Shown here: piece by piece, positions 4,461 through 19,969 of the stretch
Layout of the letters: every line of letters begins with the position of its first letter
How positions within the stretch are numbered: position 1 is the first letter of the stretch
From: Phycisphaera sp.
Lineage (GTDB): Bacteria; Planctomycetota; Phycisphaerae; Phycisphaerales; Phycisphaeraceae
DNA: 64,000 bases
Direction of reading: 5' to 3'
Assembly: GCA_016125215.1 (NCBI GenBank)
Contig: WGMF01000025.1
Coordinates: 1-64,000, forward strand
The notes under the pieces: generated by a model
The model's input: the letters and a program-made list of their open reading frames with translations, nothing else
Told to the model about the DNA's origin: nothing
The model's database searches: none
Translations under genes and position numbers: made by a program

Positions 4461-5345
4461 ATGAAACTGGCCGTCAGCACCTACAGCCTGGCCAAGTGGC
4501 GGTCTGAGCACAGGAAGACGCTCGCGCAGAGCTTCGAGGTCATCCGGTCGCTGGGTGTGGACGCCGTCGAGATCGCGGGCAACACGGACGTGCGCAAGCC
4601 CGTGGTGCATGACCCGGTCAGGCGTGCGAAGGAACTGCGCCGCGCTGCGGAGAATCGCGGCCTGGCCGTGTGCAGCTATTGCATAGGCGCGAACCTGCTC
4701 GTCCCCCGCAAGGAACAGCGGAAAGAAATCGACCGGATCAAGGTCGAGGTCGAAGCCGCGGCGGCGCTGGGCGTGCCGAGCATGAGGCACGACGTCGGTT
4801 GGGGCTTTGACCGTTACAAAAACTACCGTGGCCAGAAGACCGTCGAGGCTGCGATCGATATCGTCAAAGACGCCATCCGCGAAGTGACCGAGCACGCGCA
4901 ATCGCTCGGGGTCGTCACGTCGCTGGAAAACCACGGCTTTTTCTTTCAGGCGGGCACGGTGGTCGAGAGGCTGCTCAAAGCCGTCAACCACCCGAACTTC
5001 CGGCTCACCATCGACCTGGGTAATTTCCTGTGCGTCAACGACGACCCGGTCAAGGCCACCAGACGCCTGGCAAAATACGTCGTCATGGCGCACGCCAAGG
5101 ACTTCCACGTCAAGCCCAAGGAGCGTTCGCCGGGCGAGGGCTGGTTCAACACGCCAACGGACATCGCGCTGCGTGGCGCGGTCGCGGGCCACGGCGTGCT
5201 CGACCTGCCGGCTCAGTTGAAAATCCTACGCGACGCGGGTTACGACAGGTATCTCTCGCTCGAGTTCGAGGGCATCGAGGAACCGGTCAAGGCGGTCCGG
5301 ATGGGGCTGGACTACCTGCGGAAGGTTCTCGCAACGCCCCGGTAA
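4461..5345 (+). CDS. Sugar phosphate isomerase/epimerase (AP endonuclease 2 fold)
   Basis: A 294-residue TIM-barrel protein of the xylose isomerase-like superfamily. It opens with MKLAVSTYSLA and shows the usual metal-site neighbourhoods: SLENHGFFF (about residues 154-162), LTIDLGNFLCVN (about 178-189), VVMAHAKDFHVK (about 205-216) and YLSLEFEGIEEP (about 256-267). Family members isomerise or epimerise ketosugars or inositol derivatives, but the substrate cannot be read from sequence. It has no signal peptide, so it is cytoplasmic. A strong hairpin follows the stop. Confidence 0.8.
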   Translation: MKLAVSTYSLAKWRSEHRKTLAQSFEVIRSLGVDAVEIAGNTDVRKPVVHDPVRRAKELRRAAENRGLAVCSYCIGANLLVPRKEQRKEIDRIKVEVEAAAALGVPSMRHDVGWGFDRYKNYRGQKTVEAAIDIVKDAIREVTEHAQSLGVVTSLENHGFFFQAGTVVERLLKAVNHPNFRLTIDLGNFLCVNDDPVKATRRLAKYVVMAHAKDFHVKPKERSPGEGWFNTPTDIALRGAVAGHGVLDLPAQLKILRDAGYDRYLSLEFEGIEEPVKAVRMGLDYLRKVLATPR

Positions 5346-5362
5346 ACCCGCTGTTATCAATC

Positions 5363-5392
5363 AAAGCGGAGGGGTGGACATCCCTCCGCTTT
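5363..5392. terminator. Bidirectional hairpin terminator
   Basis: An 11-bp perfect stem AAAGCGGAGGG / CCCTCCGCTTT with an 8-base loop sits between two convergent genes (isomerase + and dnaA -). A/T runs at both ends allow it to act in both directions. Confidence 0.75.
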
Positions 5393-5427
5393 CACTATTC
5401 CATGAATAGGTATCACCTCAACCGGCG

Positions 5428-6936
5428 TCAGCGCAGGTCGTGCGTGACGGCTTCGACCAGTTCGCTGAGCGTGCCCACACCCGCGCCGGGGGGGAGCAGG
5501 ATCGGCCCGGTGTCCTTGAGCTGTTTGTCGATCCGCTGCGCGGCGGCGATCATCGACGAGTGCGACGCGTTGCCCAGGGCAGTGGCGATCTCGGGGTAGC
5601 TCATCACGGTGAGCTTTCGCGCGAGGTGGACGGTGAGCGAGCGGGCCAGCACGACCATCTTGTGGCGCGACCCGCTGCGCACGACGGCGGGCTCGAGCGT
5701 AAGACGTTTGCAGACGGCTTCGAGGATGGCGCTGATCGTGACCGGGCCGCGCGGCGCTGGCGCGGGCTGGGATTCGAGGTAACGGTTGAGCAGCGTGTGG
5801 CCGACGGTTCGGGACGTGGTGGGTGCGGACTTCGCCTCGGATTTCTCGGGGCAGAGAGTGGCCAGGGCGTGGAGTTTGGCCAGCGCGCCTTCGATCTCGC
5901 GCACGGAGCCTTTGGTGTGATCTGCCAGGACCTGGACAACAGTATCCATGAGCGAGAGTCCGCGCCGCTGCGCCAGGACCTGGAGGATGCGCATCCGCGT
6001 CACCGGGTCGGGCTGCCTGACCTCGACGACCAGCCCACGCAGGCATCGGCTCGACAGGGCTTCGGAGAATTGCTTGATGAGCCGGGGGTGCTCATCGCCG
6101 GCCATGACCAGGCGTGCCCCCTTGAGGTCCAGCGCATCGATGCAGTGGAGGAACTCCTTCTGTGTCGCGTTCTTGTCGGCTAAAAAATGGACATCGTCCA
6201 CCGCCAGCAGGTCGAGGCCCCGCACGGAGGCACGGAAGGCGGCCAGCGTGTTGCTGCGGACAGCGGTGATGTAACGGTTGGTGAAGACCTCGGCTGGGGT
6301 GTAGAGGACCCTGGCGTTGGGCTTGCGTTGGAGCAGACGTTTGCACAGGCCCTGGAGCAGGTGGGTCTTGCCCAGGCCACACCCGCCGTGGACGAAGAGC
6401 GTCCGTGCGTGGTTGTGGTGGGAGGGGTCTTGTGTCGAATCCTCGTCCGCCAGTTGCACAGCCGCGGCGTAGGCAAGTTCATTGGACGGGCCGACCACGA
6501 AAGTCTCCAGGTCGTGGCGCAGCGAGAGGTGCTTGGTGGCGACGGCGAACTCGGCGTGGGGGTGGGGGGCGGGGCGATACTGGGTCGTGGGGGCGACTGG
6601 AGATTGCTTATCGTTTGAAACCTCGCGGTCCGAATGTTTTTTAAGTGAGGGGTTGTGCGTGACCTCGATGTGGACGCCTTCACCCAGTTCCTCCTCGACA
6701 GCACGGCGGAGGTCGTCGCCCAGGTTTTTGTTGATCCACGAGACCGCGAACTGAGTAGGCACCGCCAGCTCGAACCGGGCGTTGTGCTCGGAAAAATCCA
6801 TCCGCGCCGTGCGGTCGAACCACATGGCAAACTTACGCTCGCCCACGCTCTTGCGCAGGTGCTGGGCGATGCGTTGCACAGCCTGATCCCCGATGAGTGA
6901 AGCGGTCGTCACGGACACCCCCTGACTTGGACCCAT
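5428..6936 (-). CDS. dnaA: Chromosomal replication initiator DnaA
   Basis: AAA+ initiator that binds DnaA boxes and opens the origin. Domain I is recognisable (KFAMWFDRTARMDF, PTQFAVSWINKNLGDDL). The ATPase has Walker A GGCGLGKTHLLQG (about residues 180-192), Walker B LLAVDDVHFLADK (about 241-253) and a sensor II region. Domain IV (about 405-502) has the helix-turn-helix SYPEIATALGNASHSSM, where the usual signature reads GGRDHTTV. ATG 6936 gives 502 residues. GTG 6918 and GTG 6912 are alternatives, the latter with AGGGGG 5 bases upstream. No dnaN or recF lies beside it. Confidence 0.93.
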   Translation of the reverse strand: MGPSQGVSVTTASLIGDQAVQRIAQHLRKSVGERKFAMWFDRTARMDFSEHNARFELAVPTQFAVSWINKNLGDDLRRAVEEELGEGVHIEVTHNPSLKKHSDREVSNDKQSPVAPTTQYRPAPHPHAEFAVATKHLSLRHDLETFVVGPSNELAYAAAVQLADEDSTQDPSHHNHARTLFVHGGCGLGKTHLLQGLCKRLLQRKPNARVLYTPAEVFTNRYITAVRSNTLAAFRASVRGLDLLAVDDVHFLADKNATQKEFLHCIDALDLKGARLVMAGDEHPRLIKQFSEALSSRCLRGLVVEVRQPDPVTRMRILQVLAQRRGLSLMDTVVQVLADHTKGSVREIEGALAKLHALATLCPEKSEAKSAPTTSRTVGHTLLNRYLESQPAPAPRGPVTISAILEAVCKRLTLEPAVVRSGSRHKMVVLARSLTVHLARKLTVMSYPEIATALGNASHSSMIAAAQRIDKQLKDTGPILLPPGAGVGTLSELVEAVTHDLR

Positions 6937-7581
6937 CCAGCGCACAGCACCCCTGACCCGACGCGCGGGCTTGGCCTCTTGAGCCGGTCTGGATGGAATC
7001 AATGGGACTGGGAAAAATGGAACCCCGGGTCCGTCCGCCGCTCCACGGGGTCTTGCGTGATCGATCCGCGGTGTCACGACTGGCAGCGGGAAACTCGGTT
7101 GACTTCGCCCAGCGACATCAACGCGCCCACGCCCTTCACGACACCGCGACCCACACCAGGCCTAACCCACAGCCGATCCGCTTGCCGTTGACCTGAAGAT
7201 CAGAACTATCGTCAGCACGATCATCAGACCACGGACACGACCGACCGCGTTCGCGGGGTGGCAATCCCTTGCCACGTTGTGAAGGATAAAGCACCGCGTC
7301 CTGCACGGCAACGCCTCGGTGGACTCCGCAGCGTTTGCATTGGCTCATGGTCTTGCGCTGACAGGGTTTGTCGAATGAAAAAATTTTTATCCACCCGACT
7401 CGCGTCGTGTCCGGAGATGTTGTGGAAAACGTGAGCGTCGCGTGAGCGCGGGATTTTCAAGCCCTTGCAAGATTCGAGTTTGTGTCAGCTTGAAGTCCAC
7501 GTGATGGTCGCGGCGATGCGGGCCGGGCCGCGCGTCGTTGCGGGGGAAAAAATTCAAGTTTTTCGAGGGTTGGTTTTGCGG
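6937..7581. other. Long intergenic region upstream of dnaA, candidate origin
   Basis: No gene is seen between the divergently facing dnaA 5' end and the GNAT 3' end. It contains an A/T run at 7376-7390 joined to TTATCCACC (7387-7395, one mismatch from the DnaA-box consensus), and TTTTCCACA on the minus strand (7421-7429, fits TTWTNCACA). Two near-boxes and an A/T stretch beside dnaA fit an oriC, but the box count is low, so this is tentative. Confidence 0.35.
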
Positions 7582-8580
7582 TCAGGCGCGCGTTTGGTTT
7601 GAAGCGATCATCGCACGCTTGCTTGCGGTGGCGTTGAACCCCAGCGAACGGTAGAGCCTAACCGCCGGGGCGTTGGCCTCATCGACCGCGAGGATCAGCG
7701 AGGTCACCCCGTGGTCGCGGGCCGTGCCTAGGCCGTGCTCGAGAAGCCGGTGTGCCAGGCCCTGTCCACGGAAGGGCACGCTCAGGCCGAGGTAGACCAC
7801 CTCCATCGCGGCGCGCTGGGGCACGGTGTTGAGGAGCATGACGCCCACCGGCTCGCCTTGCTTGTGCAGGGCCCACCACAATCGCGGGTCGAATCGCCCC
7901 GTGGCCATGTGGCCGGCAATGATGTCCCCGATCTCACGCAGGCCCAGCAAGCCCGGGCAGTCGAGCGTCTGTTCGTAGCTGGCCAGAATGGCGCGCTCGA
8001 AGATCGGGCGGGTCTGTTCGTCGAAGTGGACCGCCTCGATGCCTCTTTCGAGAGACATCGGCTTGCTCGGCAGATTGGCCCGGCGTTGCATGTAGACCAA
8101 TGTCGCCAGGTCGGTAAAGCCCGCCGACGCCATTGCGCGTGCTTCGAGTTTCTGGTGCGGATCGAGCAGCGCCTGCACGAGGTTCAGACGCATCGCGCCC
8201 TGTGATCGACAGGCCTCCCTAACGAGCTGCCCCGTCACCGCAACCTCGTCGGCCACGGACAACGGCGAGGTGAACACCATCCCCGCACGCCCCGCGCTGG
8301 GCACGAGCATGGCGCTGGCCATCACACGTTCACCCCGCATGGCGCACCACAACTGCTCCAGCGACAACCGGTGTGCCTGGGCAAAGGAGATGAACTGCGT
8401 GACCGCCACGTCCGCGGCGTCGGGTCGGCCGGTCAGGAGCACGCTCAACGCCACCCGGCGGAGTGGTTGATCGTCCATGGTGACCAGCCGGTAGCGGACC
8501 GATTCGCTGCCCGATCCGCCCGCGGTGGGTCGGACCGCGTTGCGGTGGGACAGGGGGTTGGTATCGAAAGGTTCGGGCAT
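7582..8580 (-). CDS. GNAT family N-acetyltransferase
   Basis: A 332-residue protein with a clear C-terminal GNAT domain (about residues 190-325). The acetyl-CoA binding segment reads YLGLSVPFRGQGLAHRLLEHGL, followed by VDEANAPAVRLYRSLGF, the usual motif B end. The N-terminal half (about 40-180) looks like a second, degenerate GNAT fold, as in tandem GNAT proteins. The acceptor substrate is unknown. ATG 8580 gives a 28-residue disordered leader before YRLVTMDD. Confidence 0.8.
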   Translation of the reverse strand: MPEPFDTNPLSHRNAVRPTAGGSGSESVRYRLVTMDDQPLRRVALSVLLTGRPDAADVAVTQFISFAQAHRLSLEQLWCAMRGERVMASAMLVPSAGRAGMVFTSPLSVADEVAVTGQLVREACRSQGAMRLNLVQALLDPHQKLEARAMASAGFTDLATLVYMQRRANLPSKPMSLERGIEAVHFDEQTRPIFERAILASYEQTLDCPGLLGLREIGDIIAGHMATGRFDPRLWWALHKQGEPVGVMLLNTVPQRAAMEVVYLGLSVPFRGQGLAHRLLEHGLGTARDHGVTSLILAVDEANAPAVRLYRSLGFNATASKRAMIASNQTRA

Positions 8581-8737
8581 GGTTAATGAGGATCAGCTCC
8601 ACACGGGTATCGGGCTTTGACCATTGGGCACTCAACTCTACAATGGAACATACCGTTTGGGCCAGTGGGACTTGCGGACGAATCGCCAACCCACCCGAGC
8701 CGACCCATCGTTCACCCTCTGTTGTGGGAGTGGTTGC

Positions 8738-9394
8738 ATGTTGACAATCGACCGGATCAAGCCTGGCATTGTGCTCACGGCCCTGGCGCTGACTGTGTTG
8801 GTCGGGCTCGCGGCTGTGCTCAGCTCTCCGCAGTCGGCCAGTGCCTACCCCGAGCCTGCGCTGGTGCCGCGTGCGTGGGAGCTGACTTTCACCCACGACA
8901 TGCCTCGCCCGATTGCGGTGCAGGACGCCGACGGGGCCTACCACTGGTTCTGGTATATGACCTACAAGGTCGTCAACCAGACCGAGGCGGAGCGCATCTT
9001 CGTGCCGACGATCACGATCACCGACGACGAGGGCCGGATCATCGACGCCAACAAAGACGTGCCCGCCAAGGTGTTCGACGCGATCAAAGAAAAAGTCGCC
9101 AACCCTTTGCTTGAGCCTCAGGAACAGATCATCGGCAAGGTCCTGCGGGGTGAGGACTACGCCCGTGATTCCGTTGCCATCTGGCCCGCCACGGTCAGCG
9201 AGCAGGACACGCTCCTGGTGAGCATCCTCGTCGAGGGCCTGAGCGGTGAAGCGGCCATTGTGAAAATCCCCGACAGCGACGAGACCACCGTGCTGCGCAA
9301 GACATTGATGATCGACTACGAAATGCCCGGCCGTCCGCCCACGCCGCAGTCCCAGCCCGTTGTGGCCAAAGGTGAACACTGGGTGATGCGGTAG
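8738..9394 (+). CDS. Secreted protein of unknown function
   Basis: 218 residues. A signal peptide or anchor covers about residues 10-36 (GIVLTALALTVLVGLAAVLS, then SASA). The mature part has WELTFTHDMPRPI, HWFWYMTYKVVNQTEAERIFVP and TITDDEGRIIDANKDVPAKVF, which read as a beta-sandwich-like domain with many aromatic positions. I do not recognise an enzymatic motif. ATG 8738 is chosen over 8624 because GGGAG lies 8 bases upstream and the signal peptide then begins near the start. Predicted outside the cytoplasmic membrane, possibly membrane-tethered. Confidence 0.65.
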   Translation: MLTIDRIKPGIVLTALALTVLVGLAAVLSSPQSASAYPEPALVPRAWELTFTHDMPRPIAVQDADGAYHWFWYMTYKVVNQTEAERIFVPTITITDDEGRIIDANKDVPAKVFDAIKEKVANPLLEPQEQIIGKVLRGEDYARDSVAIWPATVSEQDTLLVSILVEGLSGEAAIVKIPDSDETTVLRKTLMIDYEMPGRPPTPQSQPVVAKGEHWVMR

Positions 9395-9454
9395 AAATAG
9401 AAGCGGCCAAAGCTTGACCCCTCGACTCACTAATCTCAACTCTCTACTTTCTCC

Positions 9455-9967
9455 ATGCCCCACGTCCTCATCTTTGCCGGCGACGATTACGAAGACCTCG
9501 AACTCCAGGTTCCGCGCTACCGACTGCTCGAAGCCGGCTGCGGCGTGACCCTTGCCGGTCCGGAGGCCAACACCCTCTACCACGGCAAGCACGGCTACCC
9601 GGTCAAGAGCGACGCGGCCATCCGTGACATGGAAGAGGCTGACTTCGATGCGCTCGTGATCCCCGGCGGATGGATGCCCGACAAGCTCCGCCGTGACCCC
9701 AAGGTCCTCGACCTCACCGCAAAGTTCAATGCCAGCAAGAAGCCTATTGCCTCGATCTGCCACGGCCCGTGGATCGACATCTCCGCGAAGATCGTCAAGG
9801 GCGTGACCTACACGAGCACCCCGGCCATCAAGGACGACCTGACCAACGCCGGGGCGTTATGGGTCGACAAACCCCTCGTCATTGACGGCCACCACATCAC
9901 CAGCCGAAGGCCCGACGACCTGCCGCAGTTCTGCGCAGCGCTGGTCAAGATGCTCGGCTTGAAGTGA
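9455..9967 (+). CDS. DJ-1/PfpI family protein
   Basis: 170 residues of the PfpI/YhbO type glutamine-amidotransferase-like fold. Seen are FAGDDYEDLELQVPRYRL at the start (with the conserved Glu), ADFDALVIPGGWMPDKLR (about residues 66-83) and the nucleophile elbow IASICHGPW with Cys then His. Family members are stress-linked peptidases or deglycases that act on damaged proteins and nucleotides. There is no signal peptide. No ribosome site is visible before the ATG. Confidence 0.85.
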   Translation: MPHVLIFAGDDYEDLELQVPRYRLLEAGCGVTLAGPEANTLYHGKHGYPVKSDAAIRDMEEADFDALVIPGGWMPDKLRRDPKVLDLTAKFNASKKPIASICHGPWIDISAKIVKGVTYTSTPAIKDDLTNAGALWVDKPLVIDGHHITSRRPDDLPQFCAALVKMLGLK

Positions 9968-9987
9968 CCCACGCTGAAAGTGGTCGA

Positions 9988-10027
9988 GTGGCCAAGTGGC
10001 CAAGTGGCCAAGTGGCCAAGTGGCCAA
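9988..10027 (+). repeat. Five tandem copies of the 8-mer GTGGCCAA
   Basis: Five perfect head-to-tail copies of GTGGCCAA just after the pfpI-like stop. A related degenerate array in the opposite orientation lies at 10127-10166, so the two could pair across about 100 bases. Confidence 0.85.
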
Positions 10028-10126
10028 GAGATTATTGACAATCAATCGTTCACGGCAATACACGGCCACGCACGCCGTGCGAGCTTGTTCATGTGCGTAC
10101 CACTTCGGGTGCGAATTCACCTACTC

Positions 10127-10166
10127 GACCACTAGACCACTTGACCACTCGGTCACTCGGTCACTT
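10127..10166 (-). repeat. Degenerate GACCACT(N) array, inverted relative to 9988-10027
   Basis: Successive imperfect units GACCACTA, GACCACTT, GACCACTC, GGTCACTC, GGTCACTT. On the other strand these read AGTGGTC(A/T)AGTGG, the same pattern as the array upstream. The pair lies between the convergent pfpI-like gene and infC, where it could form a large stem and act as a terminator or insulator. Confidence 0.6.
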
Positions 10167-10172
10167 CCCCCC

Positions 10173-10835
10173 TCACCCCGCTGCGCTGGGCTCGGGCTGT
10201 GGCGCGGGTTTAGCCGGTGCGGGCTTGGCCGGCGCGGCCTGACCCTCGGTCGGGGGTTGCTCGGTCTTGGGCTTGGGTGCCGTCGAGCGTTTGTCCGGGG
10301 CCAGCAGCATGGTCATGCGTTTGCCCATCATTCGGGGCTCGGTCTCGACCTTGCTGATCTCCGCCAATTTGTCGCGGATCTCGTGGAGCGTCTGCAGGCC
10401 CAGCTCGCGGTGCGCCATCTCGCGACCACGGAACTGCATGGTGAACTGCACCTTGTCGCCGTCGTCGAGAAACTCTCGTGCGCGGTCGAGCTTGATCGAC
10501 AGGTCGTGTTCGTCGATCTTCGGGCGCAGGCGGACTTCTTTAAGCTCGCTCTTCTTCGAGTGGCTCTTGGCTTTGGATTCTTTCTTGCGCTGCTGGTACT
10601 TCCACTTGCCGTAGTCCATGATCCGGCAGACGGGCGGCGAGGATTGCGGCGCGACCTCGACGAGGTCCAGGCCCGCTTCGCGCGCGCGACGCTTGGCGTC
10701 TTCGAGTGAGACGACGCCCACCTGCTCGTCGTTGTCGTCGATGAGTCGGACGGGGGAGATGCGGATGAGTTCATTGAATCGCAGGCTCTTGCCGGTGTCG
10801 CGATTCGACGGTATGAAACGTCCTCGGGTAGCGAT
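10173..10835 (-). CDS. infC: Translation initiation factor IF-3, apparent ATC start codon
   Basis: Binds the 30S subunit and proofreads initiator tRNA and start codon. The N domain has FNELIRISPVRLIDDNDEQ, GVVSLEDAKRRAREAGLDLVEV and PPVCRIMDYGKWKYQ. The C domain has KEVRLRPKIDEHDLSIKLDR, FRGREMAHRELG and a Pro/Ala-rich tail. The frame is open upstream of GTG 10721 through the conserved N domain as far as TAA at 10844, with no ATG, GTG or TTG that would include the whole domain. ATC at 10835 has GGAG (10848-10845) 9 bases upstream and gives 220 residues. infC is the classic gene with rare AUU/AUC/AUA starts. rpmI and rplT do not follow. Confidence 0.88.
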   Translation of the reverse strand: MATRGRFIPSNRDTGKSLRFNELIRISPVRLIDDNDEQVGVVSLEDAKRRAREAGLDLVEVAPQSSPPVCRIMDYGKWKYQQRKKESKAKSHSKKSELKEVRLRPKIDEHDLSIKLDRAREFLDDGDKVQFTMQFRGREMAHRELGLQTLHEIRDKLAEISKVETEPRMMGKRMTMLLAPDKRSTAPKPKTEQPPTEGQAAPAKPAPAKPAPQPEPSAAG

Positions 10836-11115
10836 GAGCTCTTACTCCAAAACAAAAATCGACCGGCGACGCCCGGCCGTTCTCTTCTATGAGTCGGGCC
10901 CACGCGGACGCGCCTCCCGGTCCCCGGGCGGTGGGTTGTTGGACAACACGCACAATCGCCCCCGCGCGTTCCGGGCCACACGCGGATATGGGATTCTTCG
11001 TCAAGATAACCCACAGAAGTGATTCACACAAGCACGATCTGCCGAATTGGAAGCGAATTTCACAGGGATTTGACGTTCGCCCGCGCTCGCCCAGCCTTGA
11101 TGGCGCGTCTTCGAT

Positions 11116-11946
11116 TCACTTGCGAGACCGTTGCCGAACAGCTTCAAAGAGCACCACGGCAGCGGCGGTGGCGGCGTTGAGCGAATCGGTCGCGGTCGGG
11201 GCCATGGGGATGCGGACGCTCAGGCCGTGGTGCATTTCAATGGCCTCGAACCACTCCGGGGGCAGGCCGGTGTCCTCGGGTCCGACGACGAGGGCAATCG
11301 GACCGGTGAGGTCGGTTTCGGTATAGAGATTCGGTGCGTCGGGCGAGGTGGCCACGAGGCGGACAGAGTGTCGGTCGCACCATTTCACAATTTCATCAAG
11401 CGATCCGGCGATGCAAGGCGAGGAGAAGACCGCGCCGGTACTGGCACGGATGGCGTTGGGGTTGAACGGGTCGACGACCTGGTCGGCGATAACCAGCGCA
11501 TCGCCCCCGGCGGCGCTGAGCGTGCGGGCGATGGCCCCGAGGTTGCCGGGCTTGGCCAGGCCGACGGCGACGAGGATCAAAGGCGGTTTTTTAGCTGAAA
11601 TATCGATATTTTCCAGCTTCCGGGGTGGGGGTGCCTCGAAGACCGCGATCAGGCCCTCGGGGTTTTGTTGGTAACACATCCTGGCCAGGATCGGGGCGGT
11701 GACTTCGACGGGCCGTACTCCCCGGGATTCAGCCTGTTTGAGCAGGGGGGCGACCGTGGGAACCTGCTCGGTCGGGAGGTGGTAAAGTTCGATCAGAGAC
11801 AGGCCCGCGTCGAGGGCACGCTCGATCTCACGAGAGCGTTCGACCGTGAAAAGCCCGGTCTTTCGCCGTTCCCGCTGCTCGCGCAGACGGACGACCGCCT
11901 TGATGCGGGGGTTGTCGGGGCTGGTGATCCTCAAGGGGGTGGGCAT
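11116..11946 (-). CDS. RNA 2'-O-methyltransferase, SpoU/TrmH family
   Basis: SAM-dependent knot (SPOUT) methyltransferase for rRNA or tRNA ribose. A substrate-binding N-domain (about residues 8-105, with [19 protein letters not shown]) precedes the knot with motif 1 [18 protein letters not shown] (about 131-148), motif 2 [13 protein letters not shown] (about 220-232) and motif 3 [21 protein letters not shown] (about 245-265). The usual Glu ahead of KPGN is Ala. The precise RNA target cannot be told. It is followed on the same strand by infC, 280 bases away. Confidence 0.87.
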
Positions 11947-11973
11947 GGGGACATGCTAGCGACTGAACACGAT

Positions 11974-12001
11974 TTGACACAGGGCTGGGGTCTGGTACAC
12001 T
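11974..12001 (+). promoter_or_regulatory. Likely promoter of the ribosomal superoperon
   Basis: TTGACA at 11974-11979 (perfect -35) and TACACT at 11996-12001 (4 of 6 for the -10) with a 16-base spacer. It faces rpsJ with a leader of roughly 120 bases, long enough to hold a control element, although no known S10-leader fold is evident to me. Confidence 0.6.
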
Positions 12002-12126
12002 TTCCCGTCTTGCCCAAAACCCGTCGGTTCTGGGTGAAAACTCGGGTCAGGCGCGTAAGCTTACCCGTGAAATTCGGCTCTTTGACACGCAAAAACCCCG
12101 GTAAACCCTCGACAGGGAACTCATCG

Positions 12127-12435
12127 ATGACCGCAGGCAAGATCCGTATCCGGATGGAAGCGTACGACCACCAGGCCCTCGACGCCTCGGCGAAAGAGAT
12201 CGTCGACCACGCCAAGCGCACCAACGCCCGTGTGGCCGGTCCCGTCCCGCTGCCCACCCGATGCGAACGCTACACCGTCCTGCGCGGACCGCACATCGAC
12301 AAGAAGAGCCGGGAACAGTTCGAGATCCGCACCCACAAGCGGATCATTGACATCATGGAACCCAACGCCCGAACGGTCGAGGCCCTCAACCGCCTCGTCG
12401 TGCCCGCCGGCGTGTTTGTAAAAATTAAGGCTTAA
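12127..12435 (+). CDS. rpsJ: 30S ribosomal protein S10
   Basis: 102 residues, full family length. [22 protein letters not shown], the loop motif [21 protein letters not shown] and [11 protein letters not shown] are all present. First gene of the superoperon. Besides its place in the 30S head, S10 pairs with NusB in antitermination. A 12-base repeat cluster follows the stop. Confidence 0.97.
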
Positions 12436-12438
12436 CCC

Positions 12439-12470
12439 CCGGAAGTAAAACCGGAAGTAAAACCGGAAGT
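12439..12470 (+). repeat. Tandem CCGGAAGTAAAA units after rpsJ
   Basis: Two full 12-base units and a partial third (CCGGAAGT), beginning right after the rpsJ stop. The CCGGAA(GT) word also follows rplP, rpsN and the peroxiredoxin gene. Confidence 0.8.
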
Positions 12471-12606
12471 TCGTTAACGAGTAACGTTTTCAGGAATAAT
12501 CAGACTCAAGCAATCAATCAAACCACGATCCTCTGGCAGCACCAAAATGGCAATGCCAAGATCATCCCGGAGACGAGCGGCGTCTCGACCTTCGGGGGTT
12601 TAGGAG

Positions 12607-13299
12607 ATGACTCAAGTGCCCGCATTCCTCATTGGCAAAAAGATCGGCATGACCCGTTTCTTCGACGAAACGGGGAAGAACATCCCCGTCACCGTCATCC
12701 AGGCAGGCCCGTGTTTTGTGAGCCAGGTCAAGACCAGCGAAAAAGATGGCTACGACGCGCTGCAGTTGGCGTTTGACGATGTCAAGGCCCGCAACTCGAC
12801 GCAGCCCGTGATCGGTCACGACGGCAAAGCCGGCCTCGGCCCCAAGCGGCACCACCGCGAGGTCCGCTGCACCTCTCAGGAAGTCGCCGGTGCCGAGCTT
12901 GGCAAGGAAGTCAGCGTTGCGTCCTTCGAGAGTGTGAAGTTCGTCGACGTGGTCGGCACCAGCAAGGGCAAGGGGTTTGCCGGCACGATGAAGCGTCACA
13001 ACTTCAAGGGCATGTGCGCCAGCCACGGCACCGAACGCAAGCACCGCTCGCCCGGCTCGATCGGCGGCCACGCCACCAACCGTGGTTTCTCCGGTCGCCC
13101 CAAGAAGGGCAAACGCATGTCGGGCCACCTCGGTGACGAGCGCGTCACCGTCCGAAGTCTCGAAGTCGTCGGCCGCGATGCCGAGAAAAACTTGCTCATC
13201 GTCAAGGGCCCCGTGCCCGGAAGCAACCAGAGTCTACTCATGATTAAGGAGGCTGTGCGCCTGTACAAGACCAAGGCGAAAGTCGCCAAGGCGTCGTAA
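12607..13299 (+). CDS. rplC: 50S ribosomal protein L3
   Basis: 230 residues. IGKKIGMTRFFDETGKNIPVTVI at the start, the long loop reaching toward the peptidyl transferase centre (about residues 125-165: KGFAGTMKRHNF, ASHGTERKHRSPGSIG, GRPKKGKRMSGHLG) and the C-terminal barrel are intact. The loop glutamine methylated in E. coli falls in a region reading HGTERKH here. A 171-base gap with repeats separates it from rpsJ. Confidence 0.96.
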   Translation: MTQVPAFLIGKKIGMTRFFDETGKNIPVTVIQAGPCFVSQVKTSEKDGYDALQLAFDDVKARNSTQPVIGHDGKAGLGPKRHHREVRCTSQEVAGAELGKEVSVASFESVKFVDVVGTSKGKGFAGTMKRHNFKGMCASHGTERKHRSPGSIGGHATNRGFSGRPKKGKRMSGHLGDERVTVRSLEVVGRDAEKNLLIVKGPVPGSNQSLLMIKEAVRLYKTKAKVAKAS

Positions 13300-13308
13300 G
13301 TCCCCCCT

Positions 13309-13401
13309 TGCAAAGCCCCCGCGGCTCTGTGCATAGCCCCCACCGGCTCTGTGCAAAGCCCCCACCGGCTCTGTGCAAAGCCCCCACCGTCCAGGTGGGG
13401 G
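13309..13401 (+). repeat. Tandem 22-bp repeat ending in a perfect hairpin, rplC-rplD gap
   Basis: Four successive units start TGCA(A/T)AGCCCCC at 13309, 13330, 13352 and 13374. The first three end GGCTCTG and are 21-22 bases. The fourth runs into a perfect 8-bp stem CCCCCACC / GGTGGGGG (13381-13401) with loop GTCCA. The same TGCAAAG head and GTCCA loop occur at 15440, 25333 and 25774, which marks a small hairpin-repeat family. Confidence 0.9.
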
Positions 13402-13557
13402 ATGCCCCCGCTGGATGCAAAGGGAACAACCGATACTGCCACGCCACGACAAGACACCGCCCCAAACCGAGTCGCGCGACTCCACACCGGCCACGATCGG
13501 CCCGTCGCACGGCGAACCACGCGTAAGCCGCCTTTACAGGCCCGCAGGTAAAACACC

Positions 13558-14226
13558 ATGATCGACATCCCCGTCCACAATCTCCAAGGCAAGCAGATCG
13601 ATACCTTCCAACTCGACGAGCAACTGCTCGGCGGCGAGGTCCGTCCCGCGCTGCTTAAGCAAGCCTACGTCCGTTACCACGCCAACCAGCGCCTCGGCAC
13701 GAGCAAGACCAAGAAGCGCTCCGAGGTCGCCTACTCCACCCGCAAGCTCTACAAGCAAAAGGGCACCGGCAACGCCCGACGCGGCTCGGCCCAGACCAAC
13801 ATCCTCCGCCACGGTGCGCACGGCCACTCGAAAAAGCCGCACTCCTGGCGTCAGAAGATGCCCGTCAAGATGCGACGGCTGGCCAACCGCAACGCCCTTT
13901 TGGCCAAAGCCGTCGACGGACAGATCAAGCTCGTCGACCAGATCAAATTCGAAAAGCCCAGCACCAAGCAGTTTGCCGACCTCCTCGCCTCGCTCAACAT
14001 CGACCGCTCCTGCCTGCTCGCCCTGACGCACACCACCTCCACCGAAGCGCGGTCCGCCCGAAACCTCTCCGACATCAAGCTGACCAACGTCGAACAGCTC
14101 AACGCTTTCGACCTGCTCAACAACCGTTACGTCCTCGTCGAGAGGGCGGCGCTGGAGAATTGGATCGCCAAACAGACCGCCTCGCTCACCGAACAAGACG
14201 TCGACATCCCGACGGAGGCCAACTAA
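13558..14226 (+). CDS. rplD: 50S ribosomal protein L4
   Basis: 222 residues. The exit-tunnel loop is present (about residues 45-100: KKRSEVAYSTRKLYKQKGTGNARRGS, GAHGHSKKPHSWRQKMPVKMRRLA), followed by the globular core and C-terminal helix. In several bacteria L4 represses its own S10 operon, but no leader target is evident here. Confidence 0.95.
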   Translation: MIDIPVHNLQGKQIDTFQLDEQLLGGEVRPALLKQAYVRYHANQRLGTSKTKKRSEVAYSTRKLYKQKGTGNARRGSAQTNILRHGAHGHSKKPHSWRQKMPVKMRRLANRNALLAKAVDGQIKLVDQIKFEKPSTKQFADLLASLNIDRSCLLALTHTTSTEARSARNLSDIKLTNVEQLNAFDLLNNRYVLVERAALENWIAKQTASLTEQDVDIPTEAN

Positions 14227-14229
14227 ACC

Positions 14230-14514
14230 ATGACGCTCCACGCCACCCACATCATCAAGCGCCCGCTGGTCACCGAGAAATCGACCTGGGAGTCGACCGC
14301 GCGCAACCGTTACTCCTTCCTCGTCCCCATGACCGCCCGCAAGCCCGATATCAAGACCGCCGTCGAGGAGCTTTACAAGGTCCGCGTCGTCAGCGTCGCC
14401 ACGCAGGTCCGCAAGGGCAAGGACAAACGCACCAAGCACGGAGTCATCAACACCGGGAGCTGGAAAAAAGCCACCGTCGAAGTCCACCCCGACGACAAGA
14501 TTGAATTGTTCTGA
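14230..14514 (+). CDS. rplW: 50S ribosomal protein L23
   Basis: 94 residues beginning 3 bases after the rplD stop, so translationally coupled. HIIKRPLVTEKSTW near the N-terminus and SVATQVRKGKDKRTKHG in the flexible loop are typical. L23 forms the docking site at the tunnel exit for trigger factor and SRP. Confidence 0.95.
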   Translation: MTLHATHIIKRPLVTEKSTWESTARNRYSFLVPMTARKPDIKTAVEELYKVRVVSVATQVRKGKDKRTKHGVINTGSWKKATVEVHPDDKIELF

Positions 14515-14570
14515 GTAAGACCCTGACCCGGCGCGGCCCGATTGATTCAGCCGCCCCCGGAGAATGAACC

Positions 14571-15425
14571 ATGGCCATCCGCGTATACAAGAAAACATCC
14601 AACGGCCGACGCAACGCCTCGGTCAACCTCTACTCCGAGGTGACCAAGAAGACCCCCGAGAAGGCGCTGCTCAAGCCCAAGAAGCGTGCCAGCGGCCGCA
14701 ACCACCACGGCGTCATCACCGTTGCCAGTCGGGGCGGCGGCGCCAAGAAACGCTACCGCGTCATCGACTTCCAGCGCAGCCGACTCGATGAAACCGCCAC
14801 CGTCGTCGGCATCGAATACGACCCCAACCGCTCGAGCAACATCGCGCTGCTCGAATACGCAGACGGCAAGCGGGCCTACATCCTCGCGCCCATCGGCCTG
14901 ACCGACGGTCACAAGATCGTTTCTTCTACCAAGGCGGCTGAACCTAAGGTCGGCAACGCCATGCCGATCGCGTTCATCCCCTCGGGCCTGAACGTACACA
15001 ACATCGAACTCGTCCCCGGCCAGGGCGGCAAGCTCTGCCGATCGGCCGGCACCTACGCACGCCTGACCAACAAAGAGGGCGGCTGGGCCACGCTCGTGTT
15101 CCCCTCCGGTGAAATCCGCCAGGTCTCGCTCAAATGCCGGGCCACCATCGGGCAGGTCGGCAACACCGACCACGCGCTGGTCGTCATCGGCAAGGCTGGC
15201 CGCGCTAGGCACATGGGCATGCGGCCCCACACCCGCGGCGTCGCCAAGAACCACCACAACCACCCCCTCGGCGGTGGTGACGGTAAATCCAAGCACAACC
15301 GTCCGCCCGCTTCCAAGACCGGCGTCCCCGCCAAGGGCGGCCGAACCCGCAAGCGAGGCAAGCCCTCCGACGCCCGCATCATCCGCCGACGCAAGAGCGT
15401 CCGCTACGGCCAACTCGTTATCTAA
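14571..15425 (+). CDS. rplB: 50S ribosomal protein L2, variant histidine loop
   Basis: 284 residues, full length. RASGRNHHGVITVASRGGGAKKRYR, IEYDPNRSSNIALLEYADG and VPGQGGKLCRSAGTYARL are present. The loop near the peptidyl transferase centre, nearly always NPVDHPHGGGEG, reads NHHNHPLGGGDG (about residues 222-233): the Asp before the key His is Asn and the second His is Leu. The C-terminal tail is Lys/Arg-rich. A 56-base gap precedes it and a hairpin repeat follows. Confidence 0.95.
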   Translation: MAIRVYKKTSNGRRNASVNLYSEVTKKTPEKALLKPKKRASGRNHHGVITVASRGGGAKKRYRVIDFQRSRLDETATVVGIEYDPNRSSNIALLEYADGKRAYILAPIGLTDGHKIVSSTKAAEPKVGNAMPIAFIPSGLNVHNIELVPGQGGKLCRSAGTYARLTNKEGGWATLVFPSGEIRQVSLKCRATIGQVGNTDHALVVIGKAGRARHMGMRPHTRGVAKNHHNHPLGGGDGKSKHNRPPASKTGVPAKGGRTRKRGKPSDARIIRRRKSVRYGQLVI

Positions 15426-15439
15426 TCAAATGTAAGGAT

Positions 15440-15467
15440 TGCAAAGCCCACGCCGTCCAGGCGTGGG
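15440..15467 (+). repeat. TGCAAAG hairpin repeat, rplB-rpsS gap
   Basis: The head TGCAAAG is followed by a perfect 8-bp stem CCCACGCC / GGCGTGGG with loop GTCCA (15447-15467). The stem bases differ from other family copies, but head and loop are identical, so the fold is preserved by paired changes. Confidence 0.85.
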
Positions 15468-15509
15468 ATCACCACGAACGGATCTGACTCCCGACCCCGG
15501 ACCCACACC

Positions 15510-15800
15510 ATGCCACGATCACTCAAAAAAGGCCCCTTTGTCGATGAGAAGCTCTACCGCAAGGTCGAGAAGCTCAACCAGATGCAACGACGCGAACCGG
15601 TCAAGACCTGGGCGCGCGGCTGCACCATCGTGCCCGAGTTCGTCGGTCACACGTTCCTCGTCCACAACGGAAAGGTCTTCAACAACGTTTTCGTCACCGA
15701 GGACATGGTCGGCCACAAGCTCGGTGAGTTTTCCCTGACCCGAACCTTCCGAGGCCACACGACCGGCACCAAGGCCCAGCGTGCCACCGGCGCAGCTTAA
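15510..15800 (+). CDS. rpsS: 30S ribosomal protein S19
   Basis: 96 residues. [15 protein letters not shown] at the start, [23 protein letters not shown] and [22 protein letters not shown] are standard. Part of the 30S head, contacts the A-site region and pairs with S13. Confidence 0.96.
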
Positions 15801-15820
15801 AACGCATTCATGACCATTCG

Positions 15821-15839
15821 CCCCGGACTTTGCCCGGGG
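15821..15839 (+). repeat. CCCCGG hairpin, rpsS-rplV gap
   Basis: Stem CCCCGG / CCGGGG with a 7-base loop in the 59-base gap before rplV. It belongs with the similar hairpins at 16207 and 16989, all followed by GAC(A/G)CG. Confidence 0.7.
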
Positions 15840-15859
15840 ACACGCACGGACTTCAAACC

Positions 15860-16192
15860 ATGCCTTACAAGAACATCCACCGCAACGCACGCATCAGCCC
15901 CAAGAAGTGCCGACTCGTGGCCGACCTGGTCCGCGGCAAGTCCATCGGCGATGCCCTGGCCATCCTCGAACTGTCCAAGAAGCGCGGCGCGGTCTATGTC
16001 CGCCAGGCCCTGCTCGCGGCACAGGCCAATGCAGAGCAGGCCGAGGTCGATACCCGTTCGCTCTTCGTCTCCGAGGCCCGCGTGGACGACGGCGTCCGCC
16101 TCAAACGCTTCCAGCCCAAGGACCGTGGCCGGGCGCATTCGATCATCAAACGCTGCTCCAACATCACCATCACCGTGGACCCCCGGGTTTAA
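15860..16192 (+). CDS. rplV: 50S ribosomal protein L22
   Basis: 110 residues from ATG 15860. HRNARISPKKCRLVADLVRGKS, ALAILELSKKRGAVYVRQAL and the tunnel-lining loop with RLKRFQPKDRGRAHSI are present. An in-frame ATG at 15830 would add 10 unconserved residues, so the shorter start is used. Confidence 0.95.
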   Translation: MPYKNIHRNARISPKKCRLVADLVRGKSIGDALAILELSKKRGAVYVRQALLAAQANAEQAEVDTRSLFVSEARVDDGVRLKRFQPKDRGRAHSIIKRCSNITITVDPRV

Positions 16193-16206
16193 CACACGAT
16201 ATTTAG

Positions 16207-16225
16207 CCCCGGGATCCGCCCGGGG
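16207..16225 (+). repeat. CCCCGGG hairpin, rplV-rpsC gap
   Basis: Perfect 7-bp stem CCCCGGG / CCCGGGG with loop ATCCG, 15 bases after the rplV stop. Directly after it the decamer CACACGGACGCT is partly repeated. Confidence 0.8.
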
Positions 16226-16272
16226 ACGCTCACACGGACGCTCACACGGACCGCCACACGAAAGACACGCTC

Positions 16273-16977
16273 ATGGGACAAAAAGTTCATCCATTCGGTT
16301 TCAGGGTCGGCATCACCGAAGCCCACAAGTCGCGCTGGTACGCGCCCAAGGCTTTGTACGGTGAGCTGCTCGTCGAGGACGAGAAGATCCGCAAGCACCT
16401 CGACAAGCGTCTCAACCGCCAGCCCCCGTTTGCCTTCGTGAGCGACATCCACATCGAGCGCACCCGTGAGGAACTCAAGATCATCGTCAAGACCGCGCGT
16501 CCCGGCATGGTCATCGGCCCCAAGGGTCAGAACATCGAAGAACTCACCGCGGACCTCCAGGCCCTGACCGGGCGTAACGTGTCGATCAACTGCATCGAGA
16601 TTGGCCAGCCCGACGCCGACGCCCAGCTCATCGCCGAGGGCATTGCCGAACAGCTTGCCAAGCGTGCCAGCTTCCGCCGTGTGATGAAGATGAAGGGCGA
16701 CGCCGCGATGACCGCCGGCGCCAAGGGTGTGAAGATCATGCTCGCCGGCCGACTCGGTGGCCACGAGATGAGCCGAACCGAGGACATCCGCCTCGGCTCC
16801 ATCCCGCTGCAGACCCTGCAGGCCAACGTGGACTACGGCTTTGCCCAGTCCTACACGACCTACGGTGTGATCGGCGTGAAGGTGTGGGTCTACAAAGGTA
16901 TGTACGCCCAACTGACCGAGGCCGAGGTCGAATCCAAGGCCGCCGGTGCCCGACCCCGCGCCCGTGGCCGCCGTTGA
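16273..16977 (+). CDS. rpsC: 30S ribosomal protein S3
   Basis: 234 residues. GQKVHPFGFRVGI at the start, a KH domain with GMVIGPKGQNIEELTADLQ (about residues 77-95) and the C-terminal domain with GVKIMLAGRLGGHEMSRTED are present. The Arg-rich tail ends the protein. It lines the mRNA entry channel and helps helicase activity. Confidence 0.96.
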   Translation: MGQKVHPFGFRVGITEAHKSRWYAPKALYGELLVEDEKIRKHLDKRLNRQPPFAFVSDIHIERTREELKIIVKTARPGMVIGPKGQNIEELTADLQALTGRNVSINCIEIGQPDADAQLIAEGIAEQLAKRASFRRVMKMKGDAAMTAGAKGVKIMLAGRLGGHEMSRTEDIRLGSIPLQTLQANVDYGFAQSYTTYGVIGVKVWVYKGMYAQLTEAEVESKAAGARPRARGRR

Positions 16978-16988
16978 CCCCCCCTTAG

Positions 16989-17007
16989 CCCCGGGCTCTG
17001 CCCGGGG
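16989..17007 (+). repeat. CCCCGGG hairpin, rpsC-rplP gap
   Basis: Perfect 7-bp stem CCCCGGG / CCCGGGG with loop CTCTG, 11 bases after the rpsC stop. Same family as 16207-16225, with a different loop. Confidence 0.8.
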
Positions 17008-17077
17008 ACGCGTGAAACCTTCTGAAACTCACTACTTGTTATACGTACACGACCCTACGCGACTCGGAGTTTGAACC

Positions 17078-17494
17078 ATGCCCCTGATGCCCAAACGTGT
17101 CATCTTCCGCAAGCAGCAGCGCGGGAAAATCCGTGGCAACGCCACCAGCGGCAACTACGTCGCTTTTGGTGACTACGGTTTGCAGTGCCTCGGCAGCGGC
17201 TGGCTCAGCGCCCGGCAGATCGAAGCCGGCCGCGTCGCCGCCCGTCAGTTCGTCAGCCGCGAGGGCAAGCTCTTCGTGCGTGTCTTCCCCGACAAGCCCA
17301 TCAGCAAGAAGCCCCTGGAAACCCGAATGGGTAAGGGCAAGGCCGAGCCCGAGTTCTGGGCTGCCCGCGTGCGACCCGGCACGATCCTCTACGAACTGAC
17401 CGGCGTCCCCCGCGACGTGGCCGTCCGTGCTCTGACCCGCGTGGCCCACAAAATGCCTTACCGCTGCCGTTTCGTCGAAAGGCGCCACGTTTAA
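17078..17494 (+). CDS. rplP: 50S ribosomal protein L16
   Basis: 138 residues. [40 protein letters not shown] and [27 protein letters not shown] are standard. It sits next to the A-site tRNA elbow. A C-rich CCCCGGAA cluster follows the stop. Confidence 0.96.
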
Positions 17495-17520
17495 CCCCCG
17501 GAACACCCCCGGGAAGTATT
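17495..17520 (+). repeat. CCCCCGGAA cluster after rplP
   Basis: Directly after the stop codon the sequence repeats C-runs joined to GGAA (CCCCCGGAA, then CCCCCGGGAAGT), like the segments after rpsJ, rpsN and the peroxiredoxin. Confidence 0.6.
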
Positions 17521-17555
17521 CCCCCTGAACAAGCACGCCCCCCTCGAGTACGACC

Positions 17556-17753
17556 ATGAAAGCCAAAGAAGTCCACACACTCAACGATGAAGAACTCAAG
17601 ATCGAAGAGGGCAACCTCCGTCAGCAGCTCTTCACGCTCCGCTCCCAGGCGGTCACCGAGAAGCTGGAAAACCCACGCCAGCTCCGCAACCTCCGCAGGG
17701 ATATCGCCCGTGTCCTGACCGAACAAAGCGCACGCAAACAGAAAAAGGCCTGA
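17556..17753 (+). CDS. rpmC: 50S ribosomal protein L29
   Basis: 65 residues: two-helix protein with LNDEELKIEEGNLRQQLFTLRSQAVT and ENPRQLRNLRRDIARVLT. Usual length. Ends 6 bases before rpsQ. Confidence 0.94.
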   Translation: MKAKEVHTLNDEELKIEEGNLRQQLFTLRSQAVTEKLENPRQLRNLRRDIARVLTEQSARKQKKA

Positions 17754-17759
17754 CCCAAG

Positions 17760-18038
17760 ATGACCACCGCCACCACCGAAAAGCCCCGTGAACTCGTCGG
17801 CACCAAGACCGGTCTTGTCACCAGCGACAAGCGCGACAAGAGCCGAACCGTCGAGGTCCGTTACCAGTTCAAGCACCCCAAGTACGGGAAGATCATCACC
17901 CGTTCAAACAAGTTCCAGGTCCACGACGAACAGAACACCAGCAAGCTCGGCGACATGGTGGAGATCGTCTCCTGCCGACCGGTCAGCAAGACCAAGACCT
18001 GGCGACTGGTCAAAGTCGTCGAAGCCGCAAAAAACTAA
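17760..18038 (+). CDS. rpsQ: 30S ribosomal protein S17
   Basis: 92 residues. GLVTSDKRDKSRTVEVRYQ, HPKYGKIITRSNKFQVHDE and LGDMVEIVSCRPVSKTKTWRLV match the OB-fold protein that anchors 16S helix 11. Confidence 0.95.
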   Translation: MTTATTEKPRELVGTKTGLVTSDKRDKSRTVEVRYQFKHPKYGKIITRSNKFQVHDEQNTSKLGDMVEIVSCRPVSKTKTWRLVKVVEAAKN

Positions 18039-18086
18039 ACCCACAGAAGATTTACAGGCCCCACGGCCACGAGCGAGTAACGAGCC

Positions 18087-18473
18087 ATGATCCAGGCTGA
18101 ATCCAGAGTTGATGTCGCGGACAACACCGGCGCCAAGATCGCCTACGTGATCCGTGTGTTCGGCGGAACTTCCTCCAAGGGACGCTTCTCCCGCAACACC
18201 GCGTCCGTCGGTGACCGCGTCGTCTGCAGTGTCAAGAAGGCCCTGCCCGGCGGCGACCTCAAGCCCGGCACCGTCGTCAAGGCGGTCGTCGTCCGCACCA
18301 AGTACCCCGTGCGCAGGCAGGACGGTTCCTACGTCCGCTTCGACCGCAACGCGGTGGTGCTCATCGACGACGAGGGCAATCCGCGCGGCACCCGCATCTT
18401 CGGGGCGGTGGCGCGTGAACTGCGTGAAAAGAACTTCATGAAGATCGTCTCCCTCGCAAGCGAGGTTGTCTGA
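18087..18473 (+). CDS. rplN: 50S ribosomal protein L14
   Basis: 128 residues, about 6 longer than usual through an extra stretch at [74 protein letters not shown] and the C-terminal [11 protein letters not shown] are standard. First gene of the spc block. Confidence 0.96.
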
Positions 18474-18543
18474 GTTACAGCGAGCCGGGCCGTGCCGGCC
18501 CGGATACCCCAGGACTATTCACCCGACTGTTTGGAACACCACC

Positions 18544-18861
18544 ATGCCACGACACATCCGAAAAGGCGACCAGGTCATCGTGACCGCCGGCAAAGACCGC
18601 GGCAGGATCGGCACGGTCCTGCGCGTCATCCCCAAGGACTCGAAGGTCGTTGTCCAGGGTATCAACGTGAAGAAGCGCCACATGCGGCCGACCCAGACCA
18701 ACCCCCAGGGCGGCATCATCGACAAGGAGATGCCCCTGCACTGGTCCAACGTCTCCCCCGCGGTCGACGGCAAGCCCAGCCGTGTGCGTTTTCAAACCAA
18801 GGACGGCAAGAAGGTCCGCGTCGCGGTGCGGGGCGGCGGTCAGATCGGGCAGGCCCTCTAA
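18544..18861 (+). CDS. rplX: 50S ribosomal protein L24
   Basis: 105 residues from ATG 18544. [22 protein letters not shown] is the KOW motif (about residues 7-28), then [22 protein letters not shown]. It begins 50S assembly by binding the 5' end of 23S rRNA. The upstream in-frame ATG at 18466 would overlap rplN and is not used. Confidence 0.95.
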
Positions 18862-18908
18862 TCAACTGATGCACAAGGCGGGACACCCACCCGCAAGCGA
18901 GAAAAGTC

Positions 18909-19550
18909 ATGGCCAAGAAACAAGAACAAGAAAAATCAACCGAGAAAGCGCCCGTCGGCCCGAAGACGCCGCCGCGCATGAAGGTCCGCTTCAACCAGGA
19001 AGTCTCCGCGAAGGTCAAGGAGCAGTTCAAGGTGGCCAACCCCATGGCCCTGCCGCGCCTGGAGAAGGTGATCCTCAACGTCGGCCTGGGCAAGCAGCTC
19101 GAGGGCACCAAGCTCAACCCCAAGGCCAAGGAGCAGGTCATCAAGGACCTGACCGTGATCGCCGGCCAGAAGCCCGTGATGTGCATCGCCAAGAAGAGCG
19201 TCTCGAACTTCAAGCTCCGCGCGGGCTTTGAGATCGGTGCCCGGGTGACGCTCCGCGGCGACCGCATGTGGGAGTTCGTCGACCGTTTGATCTCGCTGGC
19301 CATCCCCCGCATCAAGGACTTCCGTGGGTTGCCCTTCAAGAGCTTCGACAAAGCCGGCAACTACGCGTTCGGCGTGCAGGAGCAGGGCATCTTCCCCGAG
19401 GTCGACATGGCCAACGCCGAGTTCCAGCACGGCCTGAACGTGCAGTTCTGCTTCAAAAACTCCAGCCCCGAGGTCAGCAAGTTTGTCCTGGCCGAGATGG
19501 GCGTGCCCTTTGTCAAGCCCGAAGACCTCAAACAGGGCCGACGACGCTGA
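18909..19550 (+). CDS. rplE: 50S ribosomal protein L5, N-terminal extension
   Basis: 213 residues against a usual 178-187. An extra Lys/Glu-rich N-terminus of about 25 residues (KKQEQEKSTEKAPVGPKTPP) precedes the conserved core. Core motifs: NPMALPRLEKVILNVGLG, IAGQKPVMCIAKKSVSNFKLR, LRGDRMWEFVDRLISLAIPR and DFRGLPFKSFDKAGNYAFGV. It binds 5S rRNA and touches P-site tRNA. ATG 18909 is the only start with sensible spacing to rplX. Confidence 0.95.
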   Translation: MAKKQEQEKSTEKAPVGPKTPPRMKVRFNQEVSAKVKEQFKVANPMALPRLEKVILNVGLGKQLEGTKLNPKAKEQVIKDLTVIAGQKPVMCIAKKSVSNFKLRAGFEIGARVTLRGDRMWEFVDRLISLAIPRIKDFRGLPFKSFDKAGNYAFGVQEQGIFPEVDMANAEFQHGLNVQFCFKNSSPEVSKFVLAEMGVPFVKPEDLKQGRRR

Positions 19551-19620
19551 ATGTGATCGCAGATCGTGATGAACACACTGTAAGTCCGAACCACGAGACC
19601 CCACCGACCCGAGGAAACAC

Positions 19621-19890
19621 ATGGCCTGCAAGTCCACGCTACTGAGAAACGAACGGATCAAGAAGACCGTTGCCAAGTACGCCGAGCTACGCAAGCAGCT
19701 CAAGGAAGCCGGCGACTACGCGGCGCTGCAGCGTCTTCCCCGCGACGCCAGCCCGACGCGCATCCGCAACTTCTGCGCCCTGACCGGTCGCTCACGCGGC
19801 AACTACCGCAAGTTCAAGGTCTGCCGAATCATGCTCCGTGAACTGGCGCTTCAGGGCAAAATCCCCGGCATGCGAAAGGCCTCCTGGTAA
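19621..19890 (+). CDS. rpsN: 30S ribosomal protein S14, long zinc-free form
   Basis: 89 residues, the long type. [20 protein letters not shown] at the start and [27 protein letters not shown] near the end. The CxxC pairs of the short zinc-binding type are absent. Confidence 0.95.
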
Positions 19891-19917
19891 CCCCCCCCGG
19901 AACTCCCCCCGGAAGTG
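19891..19917 (+). repeat. CCCCCCGGAA cluster after rpsN
   Basis: Immediately after the rpsN stop, two copies of a C-run plus GGAA, the second extended to GGAAGT. Confidence 0.6.
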
Positions 19918-19969
19918 AATACAAACACGCACCGCGTCACCACAACCCAGACGCGCTTCGGAGAACACA

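Follow-up and report, generated by a model that had tools for sequence, protein, structure and literature searches.

An ATC start codon predicted for infC in a Phycisphaera genome and conserved across its family

We found that infC, the gene for translation initiation factor IF-3, is very probably translated from an ATC codon in a Phycisphaera genome. The codon lies at 10835-10833 on the minus strand of the window (the whole 64,000-nucleotide stretch of DNA analysed here), and its placement is read from the sequence and from conservation among relatives. The fuller explanation, in which translation from ATC has been selected for IF-3 feedback, we consider likely, with the feedback argued by analogy to other bacteria. 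It ranks below the placement of the start because it includes that feedback, and an alternative in which the codon is neutral takes a small share of the probability.

The infC locus and its start region

The gene and the elements around its start are as follows.

10173..10835, minus strand: infC (translation initiation factor IF-3), 220 codons from the ATC plus the stop, without internal stops
10833..10835, minus strand: predicted ATC start codon, at a place where protein conservation rises and where 36/36 distinct family genes have ATC
10842..10844, minus strand: in-frame TAA closing the frame upstream, three codons before the ATC, read directly
10845..10848, minus strand: GGAG, Shine–Dalgarno sequence, nine bases before the ATC; 35/36 family genes have a match at normalised spacing 5-8
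10569..10775, minus strand: IF-3 N-terminal domain IF3_N (Pfam PF05198), residues 21-89 of the ATC-opened frame
10296..10547, minus strand: IF-3 C-terminal domain IF3_C (Pfam PF00707), residues 97-180 of the ATC-opened frame

On the minus strand the start reads ...TTTTGGAGTAAGAGCTC-ATC-GCT-ACC-CGA-GGA..., and the stretch 10860-10780 reads GATTTTTGTTTTGGAGTAAGAGCTC ATC GCT ACC CGA GGA CGT TTC ATA CCG .... No ATG, GTG or TTG occurs in the infC frame between the TAA at 10844-10842 and a GTG at 10721, and in a list of open reading frames with standard starts (ATG, GTG, TTG) this frame appears as 10173-10721, opening at that GTG. Because GTG 10721 is residue 39, a start there would cost the protein 38 residues, the beginning of IF3_N among them. 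The first-pass annotation had described an IF-3 N-domain that runs in frame up to the TAA at 10844 and is covered by no ATG, GTG or TTG, and both the codon reading and the list agree with it; it had also placed an ATC at 10835-10833 behind a GGAG, with nine bases between, and these coordinates are correct.

The identity of the product is clear from a profile search of the genome, in which TIGR00168 matched it with 212.6 bits (6.8e-63), above the cut-off of 60. This was the sole TIGR00168 match at E ≤ 0.001 in the whole assembly, and no second infC copy was found; the product also matches IF-3 chains from solved structures. Among thirteen E. coli IF-3 residues considered important for 30S binding or fidelity, the window protein shares seven (Y70, G71, Y75, R99, K110, R131 and E134), K97R and R168K keep the charge, and Y107L, R112D, R116E and R147E are not conservative. 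Past IF3_C the protein continues for about 37 residues, a C-terminal tail in which Pro, Ala and Lys are abundant (window 10176-10286, minus strand).

Upstream of infC lies a gene for a SpoU-type rRNA methyltransferase, and downstream is a convergent gene for a DJ-1/PfpI protein; neither was found beside infC in 43 other loci, which had limited flanks and included some genes twice. Between infC and the DJ-1/PfpI gene, at 9970-10170, short repeats with units like TTGGCCAC and GAGTGACC (minus strand) were seen by eye. The gene rplT sits on contig C42 and the infC window on C16, so the infC-rpmI-rplT arrangement is not encountered here. Searches for an L20 leader or any other Rfam family at the gathering threshold (positions 5000-20000) and for a sigma-70-like promoter (10100-11200) found no match.

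Directly before the Shine–Dalgarno sequence, at 10850-10879 on the minus strand, a terminator-like GC hairpin is followed by ATTTTTGTTTT. Similar hairpins occur in 7/58 infC leaders of the family and order, compared with about one in shuffled sequences. We considered a conserved leader structure or attenuator and rejected it as part of the explanation, because the hairpin is absent from 51/58 leaders. Folding of the start region across the family genes gave nothing clear (0.49 unpaired versus 0.45, higher in 23/36). The 16S rRNA match of the assembly (G000:C48:12092-13091) stops near the end of its contig, and neither the 3′ end of the 16S rRNA nor the anti-Shine–Dalgarno sequence was found.

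infC starts in the family, the order and beyond

A first search of relatives covered 61 genomes, 58 of which had an infC match. The same-family set comprised 39 genomes; two (G010 and G020) had no match and in a third (G029) the gene is split between contigs, and 36 distinct genes were read. At the homologous place, 15-18 codons ahead of the first IF-3 domain motif, every one of these 36 genes has ATC and none has ATG, GTG or TTG. The split gene of G029, a 37th family member read by eye, shows GGAG and then ATC-Gly-Lys. For the order's other families we counted 23 infC genes from five families, leaving 12 further order members outside the count. Here the homologous codon is ATC in 18 genes, ATA in 3 and ATT in 1, with ATG, GTG or TTG in 0/22; the 23rd gene (L052) carries an ATT farther upstream, preceded by AAGGA. 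The first-pass annotation had named ATC 10835 as the infC start and proposed aligning infC starts among relatives, and the alignment supports that start: ATC in the whole family, and ATC, ATA or ATT in 22 of the 23 genes from the rest of the order.

The context of the codon is conserved as well. In 35/36 family genes it follows a Shine–Dalgarno match 4 to 6 bases long, at normalised spacing 5-8, and in the exception (L013) there are two consecutive ATC codons, with GGAG at spacing 10 to one and 7 to the other. Across family and order, matches of at least 4 bases at this spacing precede 57/58 homologous codons (L052 excluded), compared with 224/2552 control codons, defined as the remaining in-frame codons up to 45 positions ahead of the domain. 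Residue conservation also rises at the start codon among the 36 family genes, with Ile in 36/36, then Ala in 28/36, Arg in 26/36 and Gly or Arg in 35/36. Upstream of the ATC the residues are mixed, except for Gly or Glu at the Shine–Dalgarno sequence (29/36) and Thr, Ala or Pro just before the ATC (31/36), the latter reflecting the bases CC that precede it. The base immediately before the ATC (window 10836, minus strand) is C in 36/36 family and 22/22 order genes; for comparison, C holds this position in 22/30 cases before the rplT ATG of the same group and in 91/157 before Shine–Dalgarno-called infC Ile starts elsewhere.

As a control, we read the rplT start in the best 30 of 57 genomes with a match, among the 61 searched, and found ATG in 30/30 genes of family and order, indicating that the reading method does not itself generate ATC starts. 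Over the stretch that separates the domain from the in-frame stop ahead of it, 12/36 family genes contain no ATG, GTG or TTG. In the other 24 the open frame either holds a canonical codon at some upstream position or extends beyond the locus, so that in these genes the case for ATC rests on position and conservation.

We then extended the survey to 290 infC loci, of which 19 were dropped as same-sequence duplicates. The 271 distinct genes comprised 36 from the family, 23 from the order, 84 from other orders of the class (192/198 genomes with a match, part of them read), 66 from other classes of the phylum (141/147 with a match, part read) and 62 named records, kept from 80, that span several phyla and include many Planctomycetota. 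Starts were called by homologous position in the family and order, with L052 entered as ATT, and by a Shine–Dalgarno caller in the other groups; this caller gives canonical codons a half-point bonus and so slightly favours them. The choice of homology for the close relatives followed from a trial in the family of calling by Shine–Dalgarno strength alone, which disagreed with homology in 6/36 genes (L001, L006, L010, L013, L022 and L044), each time between 4-base matches of equal length.

Ile codons accounted for 216 of the 248 called starts; a further 27 were canonical and 5 were CTG, and 23 of the 271 genes were left uncalled. Ile-codon starts formed the majority of called genes in each group sampled, and in 114/271 genes the open frame ahead of the domain is free of canonical starts. 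Among the named records are additional Phycisphaeraceae whose infC has ATC in the corresponding position (L212, L219, L221, L222 and L231, among others). Six spirochaete-labelled records (L249, L254, L263, L272, L283 and L289) were called at TTG, not Ile, six codons before the domain and with a strong AGGAGG at short spacing.

Alternative starts and the choice of codon

Could translation begin at an internal codon instead? The candidates are GTG 10721, which is the first canonical start in the infC frame, ATA 10814, which has a 4-base Shine–Dalgarno-like match and was picked by the strength-only caller, and a CTG just before the RFN motif. None of these places is conserved as a start. In an ungapped comparison, the place of GTG 10721 holds GTG, TTG or ATG in only 8/36 family genes; ATA at the place of 10814 occurs in 1/36, the window's own; and the CTG place has CTG in 16/36 and TTG in 1/36, the rest being other Leu codons. 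Given that a start at GTG 10721 would also cut into IF3_N, and that the stretch right after the ATC is conserved as protein in the family, we regard an internal start as very improbable. Even less probable, to the point of being hardly credible, is translation that enters from upstream, through a longer N-terminus, a frameshift or stop read-through, with the Ile codon internal. The frame does stay open upstream in many relatives (151 codons in L005, for example), and 24/36 family genes have an upstream canonical codon or a frame running off; however, in the window a TAA closes the frame three codons before the ATC, 12/36 family genes lack a canonical start in the open frame, the residues upstream of the ATC are little conserved, and an internal Ile would not be expected to retain a Shine–Dalgarno match in 57/58 genes.

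A different kind of alternative accepts the ATC start and treats it as a frozen, inherited codon of no regulatory effect. Most infC genes with a called start have an Ile codon there, and inheritance alone could account for its presence here. Yet ATC is a single base change from ATG, and ATG, GTG or TTG stands at the homologous place in 0/36 family and 0/22 order genes. In addition, changing AUU to AUG in E. coli infC reportedly abolishes autocontrol, to judge by the title of a 1987 report by Butler. We therefore think that neutrality is unlikely, and that translation from an ATC under selection for IF-3 feedback is the better account.

Whether ATC is favoured over other Ile codons is a separate matter. 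Internal Ile codons of the 36 family infC genes are ATC in 292/346 cases, ATT in 50 and ATA in 4, so usage makes the argument for ATC over ATT a modest one. Locus L026 retains the ATC start although its internal Ile codons are 8 ATT and 3 ATC, and the chance of ATC at all 36 starts under each gene's own usage would be about 0.0003 if the genes were independent, which they are not. These data suggest, without proving, that ATC is preferred to ATT; the evidence is clearer that ATG, a single base away, is avoided.

Proposed IF-3 feedback and the origin of the start

We propose that the GGAG nine bases upstream would select ATC 10835-10833 and place it in the P site, where the initiator tRNA would read it as formyl-methionine. 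IF-3 would destabilise the resulting mismatch: an ample supply would reject 30S complexes formed on the infC mRNA, and a shortage would let translation of infC rise. IF-3 would discriminate against the non-canonical codon, and selection would retain the codon for that reason. Self-limiting expression of infC through IF-3 is plausible by analogy with E. coli and Streptomyces. Given that infC lies apart from rplT, control at the start codon may weigh more here than in operons in which L20 acts as well.

Myxococcus xanthus infC (dsg) starts at AUC, as the window gene is predicted to do. The E. coli record (L294) has ATT as the first infC codon with GGAGG upstream, and the E. coli gene shares with the window gene an Ile-codon start, a Shine–Dalgarno sequence and a short basic N-terminal tail before the domain. 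The two differ in the codon (AUU versus AUC) and in setting: E. coli infC belongs to thrS-infC-rpmI-rplT, whereas in the Phycisphaera genome rplT is on another contig and infC is flanked by the methyltransferase and DJ-1/PfpI genes. According to excerpts of the literature, infC starts at ATT in E. coli and at ATC in Streptomyces, IF-3 autoregulates its own translation through this non-standard start, and the start is misannotated in most Streptomyces species (PMC5472188); AUU is also given for E. coli and B. subtilis (PMC1805508). Streptomyces therefore offers the same ATC codon in a different phylum, although IF-3 repression of a non-canonical start was tested in Streptomyces on sigR (GTC) and not on infC of the present group. 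An excerpt of PMC5559785 reports a peptide-supported ATT start for infC in Xanthomonas and notes that Deinococcus deserti also has an ATT start, in a gene it does not name. In Xanthomonas euvesicatoria, ATT was taken as the start because no canonical start lies between the peptide-covered part and the stop (PMC5559785, excerpt); the window gene likewise has no canonical alternative, but it has ATC and is known from sequence, not from peptides. The PMC5472188 and PMC5559785 excerpts together provide the precedent for IF-3 feedback. Within the portions of the searched literature that were available, we found no treatment of the planctomycete infC start codon, or of its AUC/ATC form.

The first-pass annotation had regarded the start as an independent use of AUC in planctomycetes, a claim that is not supported: Streptomyces infC already has ATC, as given in the excerpt of PMC5472188, and Ile starts are the majority in all groups sampled. 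Mapped on a FastTree phylogeny of IF-3 proteins, the three start states (Ile, canonical and CTG) require a minimum of 18 changes, a count taken without a shuffled baseline and in which gain and loss are indistinguishable. Inheritance with drift at the third base explains the Ile starts better than a separate origin does, with the tree unable to tell gain from loss. More tentatively, and with less than even confidence, we suggest that the Ile start is ancestral in Planctomycetota, and probably in much of bacteria, and that this order has retained it within a weak, tuned context (C at -1 in 58/58 genes, ATC in 54/58). Control of the IF-3 level would then have been under continuous selection in this lineage even where, as in the window, infC lies outside the thrS-infC-rpmI-rplT operon.

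The window gene joins the known habit of infC to use unusual starts, with no new mechanism. Its reading corrects the start of the gene, which a finder limited to ATG, GTG and TTG would begin 38 codons late, inside the N-domain, and it adds a conserved group to the known rule for infC starts. It also lends weight to the idea that self-regulation of IF-3 by way of a poor start codon is common across bacteria.
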